In this document: piece by piece, positions 8,484 to 41,537 of the stretch
How positions within the stretch are numbered: the stretch's first letter is position 1
How the letters are laid out: each line of letters opens with the position of its first letter
NCBI GenBank assembly: GCA_900555265.1
Contig: UNSL01000004.1
Span: 1 to 64,000, forward strand
Direction: 5' to 3'
Source of the DNA: Candidatus Saccharimonadota bacterium
GTDB lineage: Bacteria > Patescibacteriota > Saccharimonadia > Saccharimonadales > Saccharimonadaceae
DNA: 64,000 nt
Made by a program: the position numbers and the translations under genes
The notes under the pieces: model-generated
Database searches by the model: none
What the model saw: only the letters and a program-made list of their open reading frames with translations
What the model was told of the DNA's origin: nothing

Positions 8484-8512
8484 TTGTTTTTCGTTGTCAT
8501 TTCTGCTACAAT
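8484..8512 (+). promoter_or_regulatory. Promoter of the rplJ-rplL operon
   Basis: TTGTTT (8484-8489), 17 bases, TACAAT (8507-8512) with an extended TGC just before the -10. Transcription would start near 8519, at the 5' edge of the L10 leader. Confidence 0.7.
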
Positions 8513-8518
8513 GGTCTG

Positions 8519-8650
8519 GAACATTACCAAAGACAGTGGCGACTTGGCGTAAAACAAGTATAAAAATGCCACCGAGGGATGAAACTAACAGTTTTATTTG
8601 ACGTCTTTGGTAGTGCGAGAATCAAAGACGTTTTTTGATTCTCCATTACC
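8519..8650 (+). ncRNA. Ribosomal protein L10 leader with attenuator
   Basis: The closing helix P1 is TACCAAAGAC (8525-8534) with GTCTTTGGTA (8603-8612). Inside are AGACAGTGGC, an ACTTG/CAAGT hairpin and GCCACCGAGG, the hallmarks of the L10 leader that the L10-(L12)4 complex binds. Downstream, ACGTCTTTG (8601-8609) pairs with CAAAGACGT (8623-8631) before a T-run, making a terminator that competes with P1. A third option pairs GAGAATCAAA (8617-8626) with TTTGATTCTC (8634-8643). Confidence 0.88.
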
Positions 8651-36485: not shown

Positions 36486-39400
36486 ATGGATTTCAATACT
36501 CGTTACGCTAAATTAAACGATAATCAACGACAAGCAGTCGACTACATTCACGGATCGCTTTTGGTAATTGCTGGGCCAGGAACGGGGAAAACCGAGCTTC
36601 TAAGTATGCGTACCGCCCAAATCCTAAGACAAACCGACACTTTGCCAAACAGTATTTTATGTCTAACGTTTACAGAAAGCGGCGCCACGAACATGCGCCA
36701 ACGACTCCGCCAGATTATCGGTGAGGATGCGTATAAAATTGCGATTCATACATTTCACAGCTTCGGCACAGAAATCATCAATCAACATCGCGAGTATTTT
36801 TTCCGTGGCGCCGACGCTCAGCCGGTTGACGAATTGACGCAATATCAAATTATCTCTGGAATACTCGAAGAACTTGATTGGCGAAATCCATTAAGCGCGA
36901 AAAACAATGGGGAATTTGTCTACATCAAAGACTTCATCCGCATTATTTCTGAGTTCAAGCAAAGCGGCTTAACGCCGTCAGAATTACGGGCAATTATTGA
37001 GGACAATCAAAGCACAATCGCCGAAATTGCGCCAGACATTCAGCAAGTATTTTCCGCCAAAATATCGAAAAAGACAATCGAAATGTTTGCGCCGATAGCT
37101 GAGAAAATTGCCAATTTAGCCGCCAAAAATCCTGACGAGAAAAACTCAAAATTGCCAGCCTCAATCACGCCATACGCCAACGTTTTGGCGCTGAGCATTG
37201 TGCACGCCACCCAGGAAGCGATTGACGAAAACTCAACCAAGCCGCTGACTGCTTGGAAAAATAAATGGTGTGAAAAAAATGCCAATGGCGAATTTGTCCT
37301 GAAAGATTTTACCGCCGCAGAAAAATTATCTGCCGCAATTGACGTTTACGAGAAATACGTAAATATTTTATCCGAACGCTCGTTATTTGACTACGACGAC
37401 ATGATTTTATCCGTTATTCAAGCCTGCGAATCTCACCCAGAACTGCGCGCAAATCTCCAAGAGCAATTCCAATTCATCATGGTCGACGAGTTCCAGGACA
37501 CAAATTTGGCGCAATTACGATTATTGTTCAATTTGACCAGCGAGAACGACGATAATCCAAACATCATGGCAGTCGGCGATGACGACCAAGCAATCTTCAG
37601 CTTCCAAGGCGCAGACGTGGGCAACATCCATCGTTTCCGCCAGCATTATCACGACCCAAAAATTATCGTTTTGACCGACAATTATCGTTCCGCCGAGAAC
37701 ATTTTATCCTCAGCACGAGACGTTATCACCCAAGGCGCGGATCGACTGGAAAACACGATCGACGGACTATCAAAGCAATTGACCGCACACGCAAATAGCG
37801 AAGGCTCAAAAGTCGAAATCCAAGAATTCTCATCTGTTGGCGAAGAGCGAGCGGGAATTGCCAAACAAATTGCTAAGCTGATAAAAAATGGCGAGAAACC
37901 AGAAAACATCACGATTATTGCGCGCCACCATAAAGAACTCATTGAAATTCTTCCGCATCTTTATAAGGAAAATCTTTTTGTTAATTACGAGCGCCACGAC
38001 GACATTCTAGAGCAAGACATAATCCAAATTCTGGACAAATTAGCGCGAACTGTCGTGGCGATTAGCCAGAATAATTTGGACGTTGCCAATAGTCTACTAC
38101 CGGAAATTACGGCTCATCCAGCGTTTGGATTTTCTGCGCTGGACATCTGGAAATTGAGCCTTCAAGCTTACAAAAATCGGCAATTGTGGCTGGAAAGTAT
38201 GTTGGCAAATAGCGTATTTAAGGAATTTGCAAAGTGGCTTTTGGAGCGCGCTAAAGACGTGCCGAATCTGCCATTGGAAGAGCAATTGGACAATTTATTA
38301 GGCTTAACTAACGATGAAAGCGGCGATCTTCAAGTCAATTCTCTCGCCAATTTCTATTTCTCGCCAGAAAAGCTAGATAAAAACCCAGAAGCATATCTGA
38401 CAATTCTGGAAAGTTTGCGTACTTTGCGTCAAAAACTTCGCGATCGAATCACCGATAAAAACCCAACTCTGGAAGATTTTTTGGAATTTATTGATCTGCA
38501 TATTTCAACAAAAACTCGCTTAACGCAAATTCGCACGCACGCAAGTTCACTCAGCGGCGCCATAAACTTAATGACCGCCCATAAATCCAAAGGTCTGGAA
38601 TTTCCGCACGTTTTCGTGATTGGGGCAATTGACAGCGCTTGGGGCGAGAAGGTTCGTTCACGCAGCCGAGCTATCCGATATCCCGCAAATCTCCAGCTTC
38701 AGCCAGCGGGCGCCACTTACGACGAACGACTTCGGCTATTTTTCGTGGCGATGACTCGCGCCAAAACCACATTGACCATGGCTTATTCTCAAACCAACGA
38801 TTCTGGTAGCGACACGATAATTGCCAGTTTCTTGACGAATTGCACGCCGACCGTCATTCCGACCAGCGACGATCCAGCGGAACAAATTGAACTCGCTGAA
38901 ACCGACTGGACGACACGACTAACTTCGCCGATTGTTCCAGAATTAAAGGATTTATTGGCGCCAGCGCTGGAAACATACAAGCTTTCCGCGACGCATTTGA
39001 ATAATTTCCTCGACGTTTCACGTGGCGGACCGCAGAATTTCTTATTGAACAATTTGCTACATTTTCCATCCGCCAAAAATTCCGCCGCAGCTTACGGAAC
39101 TGCGATTCACAGCAGCCTTCAGCAAGCACATTGCTCATTAAGCGCCGATCACCAATTGCCAAGCACCGAACAAATCCTCCAATTTTTCCAAAAATCCCTC
39201 GAGAGCCAACATTTGCCAGCGGACGATTTTCAATTGTATTTGGATAAAGGGAAGTCGGCTTTAACTGCGTTCTTAAACGCCAAATCTTCAGATTTTCACG
39301 AAACGGATTTGGCGGAATTGGACTTTTCAAACCAAGGCGTAATTATAGATAACGCCAGATTGACCGGTAAACTTGACGTTGTCGACATCGACAAGCAAAA

Positions 39401-39782
39401 TAAAACCATCTTCGTAACGGATTATAAAACTGGCAAGCCGGCGCATTCTTGGAAAGGTTCGGCCGATTACGAGAAAATCAAACTTCATAAATATCGTCAG
39501 CAATTGATGTTCTATCAGCTGCTGGTCGAGCATTCACGCGATTATAGCAATTTCACGTTTACCGGTGGGCGACTGCAATTTGTCGAGCCAGACATGAAGA
39601 CCGGCGATATTCTCAGCCTGGAAGACACATTCTCCAGCGAAGAATTATCCGAATTCGCGAAACTCGTAAACATCATTTGGCGAAAAATTACCACGTTAGA
39701 TCTGCCGGATATTTCTGGCTATTCGGCGGATTATAAGGGGATGCTACAATTCGAAAAAGACCTGCTGGCGGGCGAAATATAA
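36486..39782 (+). CDS. UvrD/Rep-family helicase with C-terminal PD-(D/E)XK nuclease
   Basis: 1098 residues. Superfamily 1A motors: Q motif LNDNQRQAVDY, Walker A GPGTGKTE (30-37), motif II VDEFQDTN, motif III GDDDQAIFSFQGA, motif IV NYRS, motif V TAHKSKGLEFPHVFV and motif VI FVAMTRAK. The last ~230 residues hold a RecB-like nuclease: AAYGTAIHSSLQ, LTGKLDVVD, FVTDYKTGKP and the QLMFYQLLVEH helix. This combination resembles AddA or AdnA-type double-strand-break resection enzymes, made here as a single chain. TAGAAT ends 6 bases before the ATG. Confidence 0.95.
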   Translation: MDFNTRYAKLNDNQRQAVDYIHGSLLVIAGPGTGKTELLSMRTAQILRQTDTLPNSILCLTFTESGATNMRQRLRQIIGEDAYKIAIHTFHSFGTEIINQHREYFFRGADAQPVDELTQYQIISGILEELDWRNPLSAKNNGEFVYIKDFIRIISEFKQSGLTPSELRAIIEDNQSTIAEIAPDIQQVFSAKISKKTIEMFAPIAEKIANLAAKNPDEKNSKLPASITPYANVLALSIVHATQEAIDENSTKPLTAWKNKWCEKNANGEFVLKDFTAAEKLSAAIDVYEKYVNILSERSLFDYDDMILSVIQACESHPELRANLQEQFQFIMVDEFQDTNLAQLRLLFNLTSENDDNPNIMAVGDDDQAIFSFQGADVGNIHRFRQHYHDPKIIVLTDNYRSAENILSSARDVITQGADRLENTIDGLSKQLTAHANSEGSKVEIQEFSSVGEERAGIAKQIAKLIKNGEKPENITIIARHHKELIEILPHLYKENLFVNYERHDDILEQDIIQILDKLARTVVAISQNNLDVANSLLPEITAHPAFGFSALDIWKLSLQAYKNRQLWLESMLANSVFKEFAKWLLERAKDVPNLPLEEQLDNLLGLTNDESGDLQVNSLANFYFSPEKLDKNPEAYLTILESLRTLRQKLRDRITDKNPTLEDFLEFIDLHISTKTRLTQIRTHASSLSGAINLMTAHKSKGLEFPHVFVIGAIDSAWGEKVRSRSRAIRYPANLQLQPAGATYDERLRLFFVAMTRAKTTLTMAYSQTNDSGSDTIIASFLTNCTPTVIPTSDDPAEQIELAETDWTTRLTSPIVPELKDLLAPALETYKLSATHLNNFLDVSRGGPQNFLLNNLLHFPSAKNSAAAYGTAIHSSLQQAHCSLSADHQLPSTEQILQFFQKSLESQHLPADDFQLYLDKGKSALTAFLNAKSSDFHETDLAELDFSNQGVIIDNARLTGKLDVVDIDKQNKTIFVTDYKTGKPAHSWKGSADYEKIKLHKYRQQLMFYQLLVEHSRDYSNFTFTGGRLQFVEPDMKTGDILSLEDTFSSEELSEFAKLVNIIWRKITTLDLPDISGYSADYKGMLQFEKDLLAGEI

Positions 39783-39801
39783 AAATTATTCTAGTATATT
39801 G

Positions 39802-39830
39802 TTGCATTTTTTTATAATTAGTGTTATTAT
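39802..39830 (+). promoter_or_regulatory. Promoter of the 39840-40549 RNA locus
   Basis: TTGCAT (39802-39807), 17 bases, TATTAT (39825-39830). A TATAAT overlaps at 39828. Transcription would begin near 39838, just ahead of the first hairpin. Confidence 0.6.
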
Positions 39831-39848
39831 AATAAATGCTTTATTGGT

Positions 39849-39904
39849 AGAGCCGATTTCATATCGTGCTCTCCAGGAGCATGGTTGAGAAGTCGGCTCT
39901 TTTC
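39849..39904 (+). other. Terminator-like leader hairpin (attenuator candidate)
   Basis: AGAGCCGA (39849-39856) pairs perfectly with TCGGCTCT (39893-39900) and TTTTC follows. A second stem GTGCTC/GAGCAT sits inside. A GCCGTA/TACGGC hairpin follows at about 39910-39925, before the ribosome site. Confidence 0.7.
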
Positions 39905-39945
39905 TTCACGCCGTATAGTTACGGCGCAGAAAGAGGTGAAAACTC

Positions 39946-40107
39946 ATGCCTACGTGGACCGATGCCGATCGCGATAGGGCGATCAGCAAAGGTAAAGCTG
40001 GAGGTAAGCTCTCTGACTGGGAGCGAAAAAAGCTTGAGGAGGCAGTGAAGGTCAATAATCGCGGCGATGACGCCGCTGATGCCCTGAAGAAGCAGGACCA
40101 TCACTGA
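39946..40107 (+). CDS. Small charged protein, 53 residues, strong SD
   Basis: ATG at 39946 with SD AGAGGTG seven bases upstream, stop TGA at 40105-40107. The product is very hydrophilic: MPTWTDADRDRAISKGKAGG, then a likely amphipathic helix (LSDWERKKLEEAVKVNN) and a His-His end. Not recognised. Composition is GC-richer than the flanking genes. It lies between an attenuator-like hairpin and ~440 bases of dense structured RNA. It could be a leader-type or regulatory peptide, or a small RNA-associated protein. Confidence 0.6.
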   Translation: MPTWTDADRDRAISKGKAGGKLSDWERKKLEEAVKVNNRGDDAADALKKQDHH

Positions 40108-40230
40108 CCCTCAGGATGACGGTCATAGATCTTAATCTATCTATGGGAAAGTTGATTTAGAATCAACAAAAGGGTGTCCGTCCACCCCTGGGCCTGATTC
40201 CCCAGCCGGTAATCCGGAAAAGAATCAAAG
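40108..40230 (+). other. Run of short hairpins after the 53-residue ORF
   Basis: Successive perfect stems: GACC/GGTC, CATAGAT/ATCTATG, GTTGATT/AATCAAC, GGGTG/CACCC, CTGGG/CCCAG and CCGG/CCGG. No ORF longer than a few tens of codons is convincing on either strand. Looks non-coding. Confidence 0.55.
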
Positions 40231-40302
40231 GGATGTGCGACCTGGAGTCCCTCTCTCTCGTACGAGAGAGAGGAGAGGGTTCGACTCCCTCCATGTCCGC
40301 CA
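40231..40302 (+). ncRNA. tRNA-like element without an anticodon loop
   Basis: Acceptor GGATGTG (40231-40237) with CATGTCC (40292-40298, two G-T pairs), D-like arm GAC/GTC with a GG-containing loop (40239-40249), then a 10-bp stem with a 4-base GTAC loop (40250-40273) where the anticodon arm should be. A perfect T-arm GAGGG-TTCGACT-CCCTC (40275-40291), discriminator G and encoded CCA (40300-40302) complete it. No anticodon can be read. The tRNA-like domain of tmRNA is similar in plan, but no tag frame is enclosed. Confidence 0.6.
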
Positions 40303-40316
40303 TCCGGCAATCGAAA

Positions 40317-40426
40317 AACCTAACGCTGTCGAGCGCCTCAACGGCGGCGTTCAGGTTCATCAATACTCCCCGCTAGACAATGACGTCTAGCAACGTGAGC
40401 CGGCACGTGGAAGTATTGATGTTTTC
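40317..40426 (+). other. Two strong hairpins, second terminator-like
   Basis: AACCTAACGC (40317-40326) pairs with GCGTTCAGGTT (40347-40357, one bulge). CATCAATACT (40358-40367) pairs perfectly with AGTATTGATG (40412-40421), encloses GCTAGAC/GTCTAGC, and is followed by TTTTC. Confidence 0.65.
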
Positions 40427-40510
40427 TAATTTTCGGGTTCGCGAGTTCACTCGTGGTAGTTTTTCTCACCGTTGAGATCAACTCCGAGCAGAACCGCTCG
40501 AGCCCGCCAC

Positions 40511-40549
40511 ACCCTATCTCGATGATGAGATAGGGTTTTCTCCTTTTTG
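40511..40549 (+). terminator. Strong terminator closing the RNA locus
   Basis: ACCCTATCTC pairs perfectly with GAGATAGGGT around GATGAT, followed by TTTCTCCTTTTT. The 40427-40510 stretch before it holds only weaker inverted repeats (GAGTTCACTC type). Confidence 0.9.
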
Positions 40550-40565
40550 TGATAAAATAACAGAG

Positions 40566-41537
40566 ATGATATCGTTTTGGAATGATTTACCGCAGCCATT
40601 TTTCATATTGGCACCGATGGAAGCCGTCACCGACGTCGTGTTTCGTCATGTCGTGAAACAAGCTGGTGCGCCAGATATATTTTTCACTGAGTTCGCAAAT
40701 GCCACCGGCTGGGTTCACGCTGGCGATAAGGCCATAGCTGGGCGACTAATTAAAACTGACGATGAACAGCCGCTCATTGCGCAAATCTGGGGTGGCGAGC
40801 CAGGGGATATGGAAGCTTTCGCGAAGCACTGCGCGGAACTTGGTTTTAACGGAATTGATATCAATATGGGTTGTCCCGCCAAATCTGCCATTAAAAGCGG
40901 TGGCGCGGCTCTGATTCATCGACCCGATATAGCGATAGCCGCAATTGACGCCGCCAAAAAATCTGGATTGCCAGTTAGCGTAAAAACTCGGCTGGGTTAT
41001 ACTTATGTCGATGAATGGCGAGAGTGGCTGACGACAATTCTCAAACAAGACATCGTGAACTTGACGATTCATCTGCGCACAAAAAAAGAGATGAGCAAAG
41101 TTGCGGCGCATTATGAATTGATTGACGAGATTGTTAAGCTGCGCGATGAAATTGCCCCACAAACATTCCTGACTATCAACGGCGATATTCGCGATCGAGA
41201 GCATGGGCTGGAAATTGCCAGAAAACATCCCGGCGTGAGTGGAATTATGATTGGGCGAGGCGTTTTTAGTGATCCGTTCTGCTTCCGTAAATCGAAAACT
41301 GACGCAGAGAATCATAAAGAAGAACTATTGGCGCTTCTTAATTATCACTTGGATTTGTTCGATTCTTACCAGCCGATTTTAGGGCGACCTTTTGAAACTC
41401 TAAAACGTTTTTTCAAGATTTATATTCGCGATTTTGACGGCGCAAAGGAACTTCGAGAAAACTTGATGCACACCACGACAACCGACGAGGTGCGATCAAT
41501 ACTTGCACACAACGATCATCCACACTATACTTATTGA
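40566..41537 (+). CDS. dus: tRNA-dihydrouridine synthase
   Basis: 323 residues, TIM-barrel flavoenzyme of the Dus family. FMN-binding opening LAPMEAVTDVVFR, catalytic-loop Cys in NMGCPAKSAIKSGGAAL, PVSVKTRLGY, and phosphate-binding GIMIGRGVFSDPF. The C-terminal ~70-residue helical domain has the LLNYHLDLFD region. It reduces uridine to dihydrouridine in tRNA D-loops. TAAAAT ends 7 bases before the ATG. The stop is TGA, showing that TGA is not reassigned. The next gene starts one base after the stop. Confidence 0.95.
   Translation: MISFWNDLPQPFFILAPMEAVTDVVFRHVVKQAGAPDIFFTEFANATGWVHAGDKAIAGRLIKTDDEQPLIAQIWGGEPGDMEAFAKHCAELGFNGIDINMGCPAKSAIKSGGAALIHRPDIAIAAIDAAKKSGLPVSVKTRLGYTYVDEWREWLTTILKQDIVNLTIHLRTKKEMSKVAAHYELIDEIVKLRDEIAPQTFLTINGDIRDREHGLEIARKHPGVSGIMIGRGVFSDPFCFRKSKTDAENHKEELLALLNYHLDLFDSYQPILGRPFETLKRFFKIYIRDFDGAKELRENLMHTTTTDEVRSILAHNDHPHYTY

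Follow-up and report, generated by a model that had tools for sequence, protein, structure and literature searches.

A proposed family of hypervariable, mostly non-decoding tRNA-like elements between a helicase-nuclease gene and dus in Saccharibacteria

Why would a bacterium keep a tRNA-shaped gene without an anticodon loop? This question is raised by a 72-nt element in the window, i.e., the whole stretch of 64,000 nucleotides of Saccharibacteria DNA that was analysed. The element cannot decode, though it is able to fold like a tRNA. It sits in a 787-bp gap between a gene for a helicase-nuclease and dus, 3' of a 53-aa micro-ORF, and the gap closes with a terminator-like hairpin (Table 1). The best explanation is that it belongs to a hypervariable, mostly non-decoding family of tRNA-like elements located between these two genes in Saccharibacteria.

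The element and its surroundings

The element has the acceptor, D and T arms of a tRNA. It lacks a 7-nt anticodon loop and U33 and has a 10-bp stem with GTAC in their place. The sequence-only reading had described this architecture, including the G-CCA end, and direct reading of the letters agrees with it.

Table 1. Coordinates of the element, its parts and the neighbouring features in the window
Feature	Position	Strand	Basis
UvrD-type helicase with C-terminal PD-(D/E)XK nuclease domain, 1098 aa; upstream border of the locus	36486..39782	+	PF00580 E 6.8e-65; PF13361 E 5.4e-31; PF12705 E 9.1e-17
Micro-ORF, 53 aa, MPTWTDADRDRA..., SD AGAGGTG	39946..40107	+	SD-led ORF
Pseudoknot (PK) module: GACGG, two hairpins, GGGTG-TCCGTC-CACCC, CTGGG/CCCAG interlaced with TGATTC/GAATCA	40118..40227	+	similar in G051, G132 and G377
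tRNA-like element, 72 nt, encoded CCA	40231..40302	+	direct sequence reading; own finder; pairing kept in relatives
Acceptor stem, 5' strand GGATGTG	40231..40237	+	pairs 7/7 (two G-U) with CATGTCC, 40292-40298
D arm GAC-CTGGA-GTC, GG in loop	40239..40249	+	sequence reading
10-bp palindromic stem with GTAC closure (40260-40263), replacing the anticodon arm; strands CCTCTCTCTC (40250-40259) and GAGAGAGAGG (40264-40273)	40250..40273	+	sequence reading
T arm GAGGG-TTCGACT-CCCTC	40275..40291	+	sequence reading
Acceptor 3' strand (40292-40298), discriminator G73 (40299), CCA (40300-40302)	40292..40302	+	sequence reading
Long imperfect hairpin CATCAATACTCCC...GGAAGTATTGATG around CTAGACAATGACGTCTAG (40373-40390)	40358..40421	+	sequence reading
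3' motif GAGTTCACTC...GCAGAACCGCTCGAG	40438..40505	+	common to G132 and G051; by eye also G377, G053 and G091
Terminator-like hairpin with T-rich tail, 5' of dus	40511..40546	+	sequence reading
tRNA-dihydrouridine synthase (dus); downstream border	40566..41537	+	PF01207 E 4.4e-47

Standard annotation passes over the element. ARAGORN called three ordinary tRNAs in the 64-kb window and left it uncalled, and at gathering thresholds Rfam matched three tRNAs and a ribosomal protein L10 leader in the window but not 40231-40302. The L10 leader is found at 8509-8645, above the Rfam cut-off. Our own finder requires seven acceptor pairs (or six if all are Watson-Crick), a T stem of 5 bp and a T loop that matches T[TG]C[AG]A; on both strands of the 64 kb it gave four matches, which are the three ordinary tRNAs and the element.

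An alternative fold as one long hairpin had also been proposed from the sequence, and this fold is real: the lowest-energy structure is a variant of it at -35.7 kcal/mol, and the cloverleaf at -34.4 kcal/mol is 1.3 kcal/mol less stable in energies that leave out tertiary contacts. Judged from this single sequence the predicted fold is ambiguous, but the pairing kept in relatives favours the tRNA-like one.

The RNA surrounding the element is also highly structured. The 461 nt from 40100 to 40560 fold more stably than 100 of 100 shuffles (z -7.9), and within the PK module a further pairing of GACGG with CCGTC was noted by eye only. The hairpin CTAGACAAYGRCGTCTAG (40373-40390) is located 3' of the tRNA-like element in the window but 5' of the PK module in G051 and G377 (L089 and L091), as if modules had moved. 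The micro-ORF has four database clusters of 53-54 aa with 80-98% identity, one of which represents 247 contigs. Relatives of the window's dus protein in the database are at most 98% identical, and one named relative, from Nanosynbacter lyticus, has 72% identity; on this basis we assign the window to a Saccharibacterium. The window's dus protein has 323 aa and many close relatives have 358-425 aa, and matches in some genomes stop near residue 245; both suggest a variable insert.

tRNA-like elements upstream of dus in relatives

Relatives were compared with dus as anchor; at the thresholds used, it was detected in 56 of 61 members of the family and in 245 of 294 of the class. The loci of 86 relatives, mostly those with the dus most similar to that of the window, were examined together with the window (87 loci), and the helicase C-terminus was located upstream of dus in 70 of them, the window included. 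Elements were collected as the union of matches of our finder and Rfam tRNA matches upstream of dus, whereby the Rfam scans took in 80 of the 86 fetched loci. This yielded 40 elements in 28 of the 87 loci (27 by both detectors, 5 by Rfam only and 8 by the finder only), and the helicase-nuclease gene was located on the far side of the element region in 23 of these 28. The remaining 59 loci contain no element by these detectors. Every one of the 40 lies on the sense strand. Over the 51,821 bp of the 70 gaps whose two borders were located, the strict finder gave 28 forward and no reverse matches; shuffled gap sets gave one match in each of 2 of 20 sets, and 70,098 bp of helicase coding sequence gave none on either strand.

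The curated Rfam tRNA score is passed by 32 of the 40 elements, and several reach the scores of ordinary tRNAs (65.2 bits in G051; 58.5 and 55.1 bits in G188). Nevertheless the anticodon arm is canonical by rule in only 10 of 40, as against 60 of 61 ordinary tRNAs, and only the window copy and five others encode CCA (6 of 40), as against 61 of 61. The sequence-only reading had taken normal anticodon arms in relatives as a sign of a degenerate tRNA. Such arms are mostly absent; the exceptions are the ten canonical cases, or 13 of 40 on a generous count. The generous count adds three elements in which the rule misses a 7-nt U33 loop seen by eye (the second of L138, the second of L142 and L207). 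The rule also accepts L146 as canonical, although the frame of this element is doubtful. One anticodon rule was used for elements and controls, and an earlier additional condition ('ext') was removed since 6 normal tRNAs failed under it. The controls derive from the tRNA matches of G051 and G188, of which 70 of 83 were fetched; the finder failed on 8 of these 70, and from the 62 control matches L251 was subtracted since it is itself a locus element. L272 is the sole non-canonical control. Fisher tests used these counts.

Three further matches were left out of the 40 as ordinary tRNAs with encoded CCA and without a located helicase: L195, which is truncated at the end of the stretch, L196, which runs opposite to dus, and L201, a tRNA-Glu next to dus. 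This exclusion was our choice, and the kept loci L137, L146, L158, L163 and L167 likewise have no located helicase. With the three restored, at most 13 of 43 are canonical, 9 of 43 have CCA and 42 of 43 are on the sense strand. Restriction to the 23 loci with a located helicase leaves 33 elements, 9 of them canonical and 6 with CCA. ARAGORN labels some other elements as tRNAs with odd or ordinary-looking anticodons. Since it misses some, such as that of the window, and labels others in this way, the family may be misannotated in genome records.

The gaps also contain SD-led micro-ORF candidates alongside the elements. They are about 40-60 aa long, variable, of at least two kinds and have a strong SD (window 39946-40107; gaps in L127-L212). 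Two recurring kinds of micro-protein were aligned, a helical kind (8 sequences) and a zinc CxxC kind (6 sequences); 9 of these 14 are in loci with an element and none overlaps one. Among SD-led ORF candidates of any kind in these loci 13 of 58 overlap an element, and we take these 13 as chance frames. The DnaJ zinc domain PF00684 matched 2 of 8 scanned micro-proteins below threshold (E 0.014 and 0.044). In the near relatives G056 and G178 the micro-ORF differs while the RBS and flanks are unchanged, and between G005 and G060 the middle of the gap is swapped and the ends are conserved. In the locus pairs L154/L191 and L144/L170 of near relatives, a different micro-ORF occupies the same place. 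Many gaps (L139, L173, L191, L145, L146 and others) have a second conserved 3' end, TATTCCTGTCCGTCTCACATTC-hairpin-GATGTGAGGCG, 5' of dus. Of the 61 gaps that are 300 bp or longer, 30 have a sigma70-like promoter (at least 10/12) within their first 220 nt, compared to 3.9% of base shuffles. In the window gap the best such match is 7/12, and a second promoter scan found none there.

The PK module directly 5' of the element is the best conserved part of the gap RNA, and the element is less conserved. When 392 class members were searched at the DNA level, 23 had matches at E <=0.01. Three of these are clear (G051, G132 and G377; E 3e-14 to 6e-10) and the others are short with E 0.0015 or weaker. 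A covariance model of the conserved gap part found the same three among the 392 genomes at E <1e-20, and eight weaker genomes at E 1e-4 to 0.08; inside the genus of G132 it found G132 alone (1 of 13). In the PK part at 40151-40227, 76 of 76 cells are paired in the four sequences with double changes in 3 of 19 pairs, a covariation score that 8 of 500 shuffles reached. The RNA containing the PK module is situated between helicase and dus in G051 and G132. Inspection by eye places it between them in G377 too, where a gene identified by eye as Fic-like (L091) separates it from dus. G207 (L117, L125) has two weak matches to the PK model of 27.7 and 25.7 bits, and L117 is divergent near a uvrA-like gene.

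Kept parts of the elements and their possible function

The body of the elements shows compensatory change. In five elements of the same sub-type, including that of the window, 60 of 60 acceptor and T-stem cells are paired, with double changes in 4 of 12 pairs and a score reached by 2 of 500 shuffles. The trio of G062, G129 and G077, which occupies one site after a common 5' region and has total lengths of 135, 74 and 128 nt, has 35 of 36 cells paired and three double-changed pairs, with a score reached by 25 of 500 shuffles. The covariation in relatives that had been named as a check on the element is thus present in both sets. The pairing percentages are partly a selection effect because most members were found by a finder that favours intact stems; the member of G377 came via the DNA and PK searches, and that of G129 was missed by the strict finder.

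Bases 74-76 are ignored by the finder. At position 74, 37 of 40 elements have C (1.55 bits); position 75 carries 0.07 bits, which is close to random, and 21 of 40 have A at position 76. The discriminator is A in 22, G in 8, T in 7 and C in 3. We read this as probable selection on a tRNA body with N73-C74, in which decoding and charging would be mostly abandoned. In a share of the relatives, differing tRNA look-alikes occupy this one chromosomal spot next to very small protein genes, which suggests a tRNA-shaped module that acts outside translation rather than a broken tRNA.

The class II CCA-adding enzyme (PF01743) was not found in 12 of 12 genomes, and 10 of 10 bacterial control genomes were positive. 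With CCA encoded in only six elements, most of the family is therefore probably unchargeable. A chargeable decoy, which the sequence-only reading had offered, is not supported as a general function, although the window copy, which encodes CCA itself, may be charged. RNase Z was below cut-off in 12 of 12 genomes. RNase P RNA is present in 12 of 12 relatives (11 above cut-off), and these RNAs contain GGTAA motifs, which we take to be the L15 GGU. In bacterial RNase P a GGU pairs with R73-C74-C75. At the sequence level the elements have features of RNase P substrates, namely 12 bp of acceptor and T-stem pairing, the T loop and N73-C74. The bases upstream of them are A or C at -3 in 35 and at -2 in 34 of 40, unlike the leaders of ordinary tRNAs in two genomes (n=60), where T occurs at -3 in 39, and A in 26 and G in 18 at -2. 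We do not count leader likeness as a strict requirement of RNase P.

We propose, with a probability of roughly 45%, that a tRNA body freed from decoding serves as a processing, end-capping or scaffold module, recognised by RNase P, in a hypervariable micro-ORF transcript. Selection would hold the acceptor stem, the T arm, usually the D arm and N73-C74. The anticodon arm would be unconstrained and could take the form of a tetraloop hairpin, a long stem, a loop of odd size or an insert, with C75-A76 mostly lost. RNase P would recognise the body and cut at its 5' side, and so punctuate the putative transcript of micro-ORFs and structured RNA. The downstream RNA would be left with a tRNA-folded, nuclease-resistant end, and elements without anticodon and mostly without CCA would be kept out of translation. 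This would explain the kept body and C74, the free anticodon arm, the tolerated loss of CCA and the place of the elements beside or between micro-ORFs. Several observations count against it: the poor promoter of the window, the CCA kept in six copies, the better energy of the hairpin fold in the window, the 13 micro-ORF candidates that overlap an element and the 59 loci without one. The leader bases count against an ordinary RNase P leader, and the loss of C75 counts against RNase P as sole reader, because C75 would then be expected to be kept like C74.

Other readings of the tRNA body were weighed against RNase P processing. It could be a natural scaffold, i.e., a stabilising frame in which the hairpin or insert displayed at the anticodon position is the active part and cleavage is not. 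At least seven elements (G062, G077, G119, G085, G377, G171 and the window) have a long stem or an insert where the anticodon would be, and the architecture matches that of a laboratory tRNA scaffold (PMC3753655); both are consistent with this. We nevertheless consider it unlikely, as a short odd loop (GCAA, UUCG and C33 loops) leaves many elements with little to display, and among the loops listed only CCAAAAG recurs (G051, G053). The elements could also act as a decoy or sponge, in which case a tRNA-binding enzyme, a toxin or a modification enzyme (including the dus product) would read the elbow and not the anticodon or CCA. This would fit the retained body and elbow, the missing anticodon arm and a variability as in an arms race. 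Anticodon-reading nucleases would however require the arm that is missing, and adjacency to dus is perhaps chance, with a terminator-like site intervening in the window; such a role seems quite unlikely.

It is improbable that the elements are decaying tRNA genes caught in a variable intergenic region. Missing CCA, aberrant loops, four elements with 69-79% identity to the nearest tRNA of their own genome and the element of G081, whose T arm is degenerate and whose anticodon loop is canonical, would agree with decay, but the compensatory changes, the restriction to the sense strand, C74 kept alone and one locus across many genomes do not. Because the detectors favour intact stems, they would miss decayed copies, and this bias explains in part why damage seems concentrated in the anticodon arm. 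That the elements are working but unusual tRNAs, which could suppress frameshift or missense mutations or donate aminoacyl groups outside translation, is highly improbable. Some 8-10-nt loops (G261, G188), a few near-normal elements (G129 with GGG, G119 with CAA, G125 with GCA) and the six copies with CCA would suit such tRNAs; tetraloops, inserts and 10-bp stems should be non-decoding, and 34 of 40 elements have no CCA in a group in which 12 of 12 searched genomes yielded no class II CCA-adding enzyme. That the window element is merely a long hairpin with secondary tRNA likeness agrees with its best-energy fold, but is just as hard to believe given the acceptor and T pairing with double changes in the five similar elements and the elements of G132 and G051, which have no such palindromic arm.

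More broadly, we tentatively suggest, as a possibility that falls well short of even odds, that Saccharibacteria have a hypervariable RNA and micro-protein system at one address. In it, a tRNA body minus anticodon and CCA would be selected, exchanged as cassettes with zinc or helical micro-proteins of 40-60 aa, and used outside translation, possibly in phage conflict or host-bacterium contact.

Comparison with known tRNA-like RNAs

To our knowledge, few bacterial tRNA-like RNAs outside translation are known: tmRNA, YrlA and some pseudo-tRNAs. In one open-access library, searched for noncoding and tRNA-like RNA and small ORFs of Saccharibacteria and the candidate phyla radiation, no account of a tRNA-like locus between helicase-nuclease and dus was found. 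The family marks a hypervariable locus of RNA and micro-ORFs in small Saccharibacteria genomes. A family that loses the anticodon arm and mostly CCA, with compensatory change in its body, would make it possible to ask which enzymes recognise nothing but the tRNA body.

The region 39780-40600 was compared with known families by Rfam at a lax threshold. The tRNA-like domain of tmRNA (RF00023) resembles the window element in its acceptor and T arm, reduced D arm and absent anticodon arm, and the element aligns to this model with the message skipped (16.3 bits, E 2.2e-4). A relationship to tmRNA, also raised from the sequence, is nonetheless not supported: there is no message or tag, the gathering score is 47, and a canonical tmRNA is present elsewhere in 10 of 10 genomes of relatives that carry the locus. 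In mascRNA/menRNA and in mitochondrial tRNA punctuation, both eukaryotic, a tRNA-like element within a longer transcript acts as RNase P signal. The elements described here share the putative RNase P signal in a longer transcript and the window scores 18.5 bits with RF01684; this is under the cut-off of 42.5, the known cases are eukaryotic and cleavage of the elements is only predicted. Tymoviral tRNA-like structures are viral and 3'-terminal. The model Tymo_tRNA-like (RF00233), which gives 20.3 bits for the window, shares a pseudoknot directly 5' of the tRNA-like element, but the score is under the cut-off of 40 and the elements are bacterial.

The protein partner of the bacterial Y RNA YrlA is Rsr/Ro60. 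YrlA is described as a noncoding RNA with a tRNA-like domain (PMC7790460). It differs from the family in that the TROVE domain of its partner (PF05731) was not found in 12 of 12 relatives, and no Y RNA family is among the Rfam matches listed for the window and loci. Pseudo-tRNAs are tRNA-like genes with non-decoding roles, such as the S. aureus tRNA-Gly(UCC) isoacceptor, which is efficiently charged, and the B. cereus pseudo-tRNA, as stated in an excerpt of PMC8007984; in contrast to these, CCA and a canonical anticodon arm are missing from most elements of the family. The laboratory tRNA scaffold consists, according to the portion of its description cited above (PMC3753655), of the acceptor stem and the T and D arms, with the anticodon stem-loop as insertion region. 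It is man-made, whereas the elements are natural and mostly without encoded CCA, but both appear to follow the same plan, in which the acceptor, T and D arms are kept and another RNA hairpin replaces the anticodon stem-loop.
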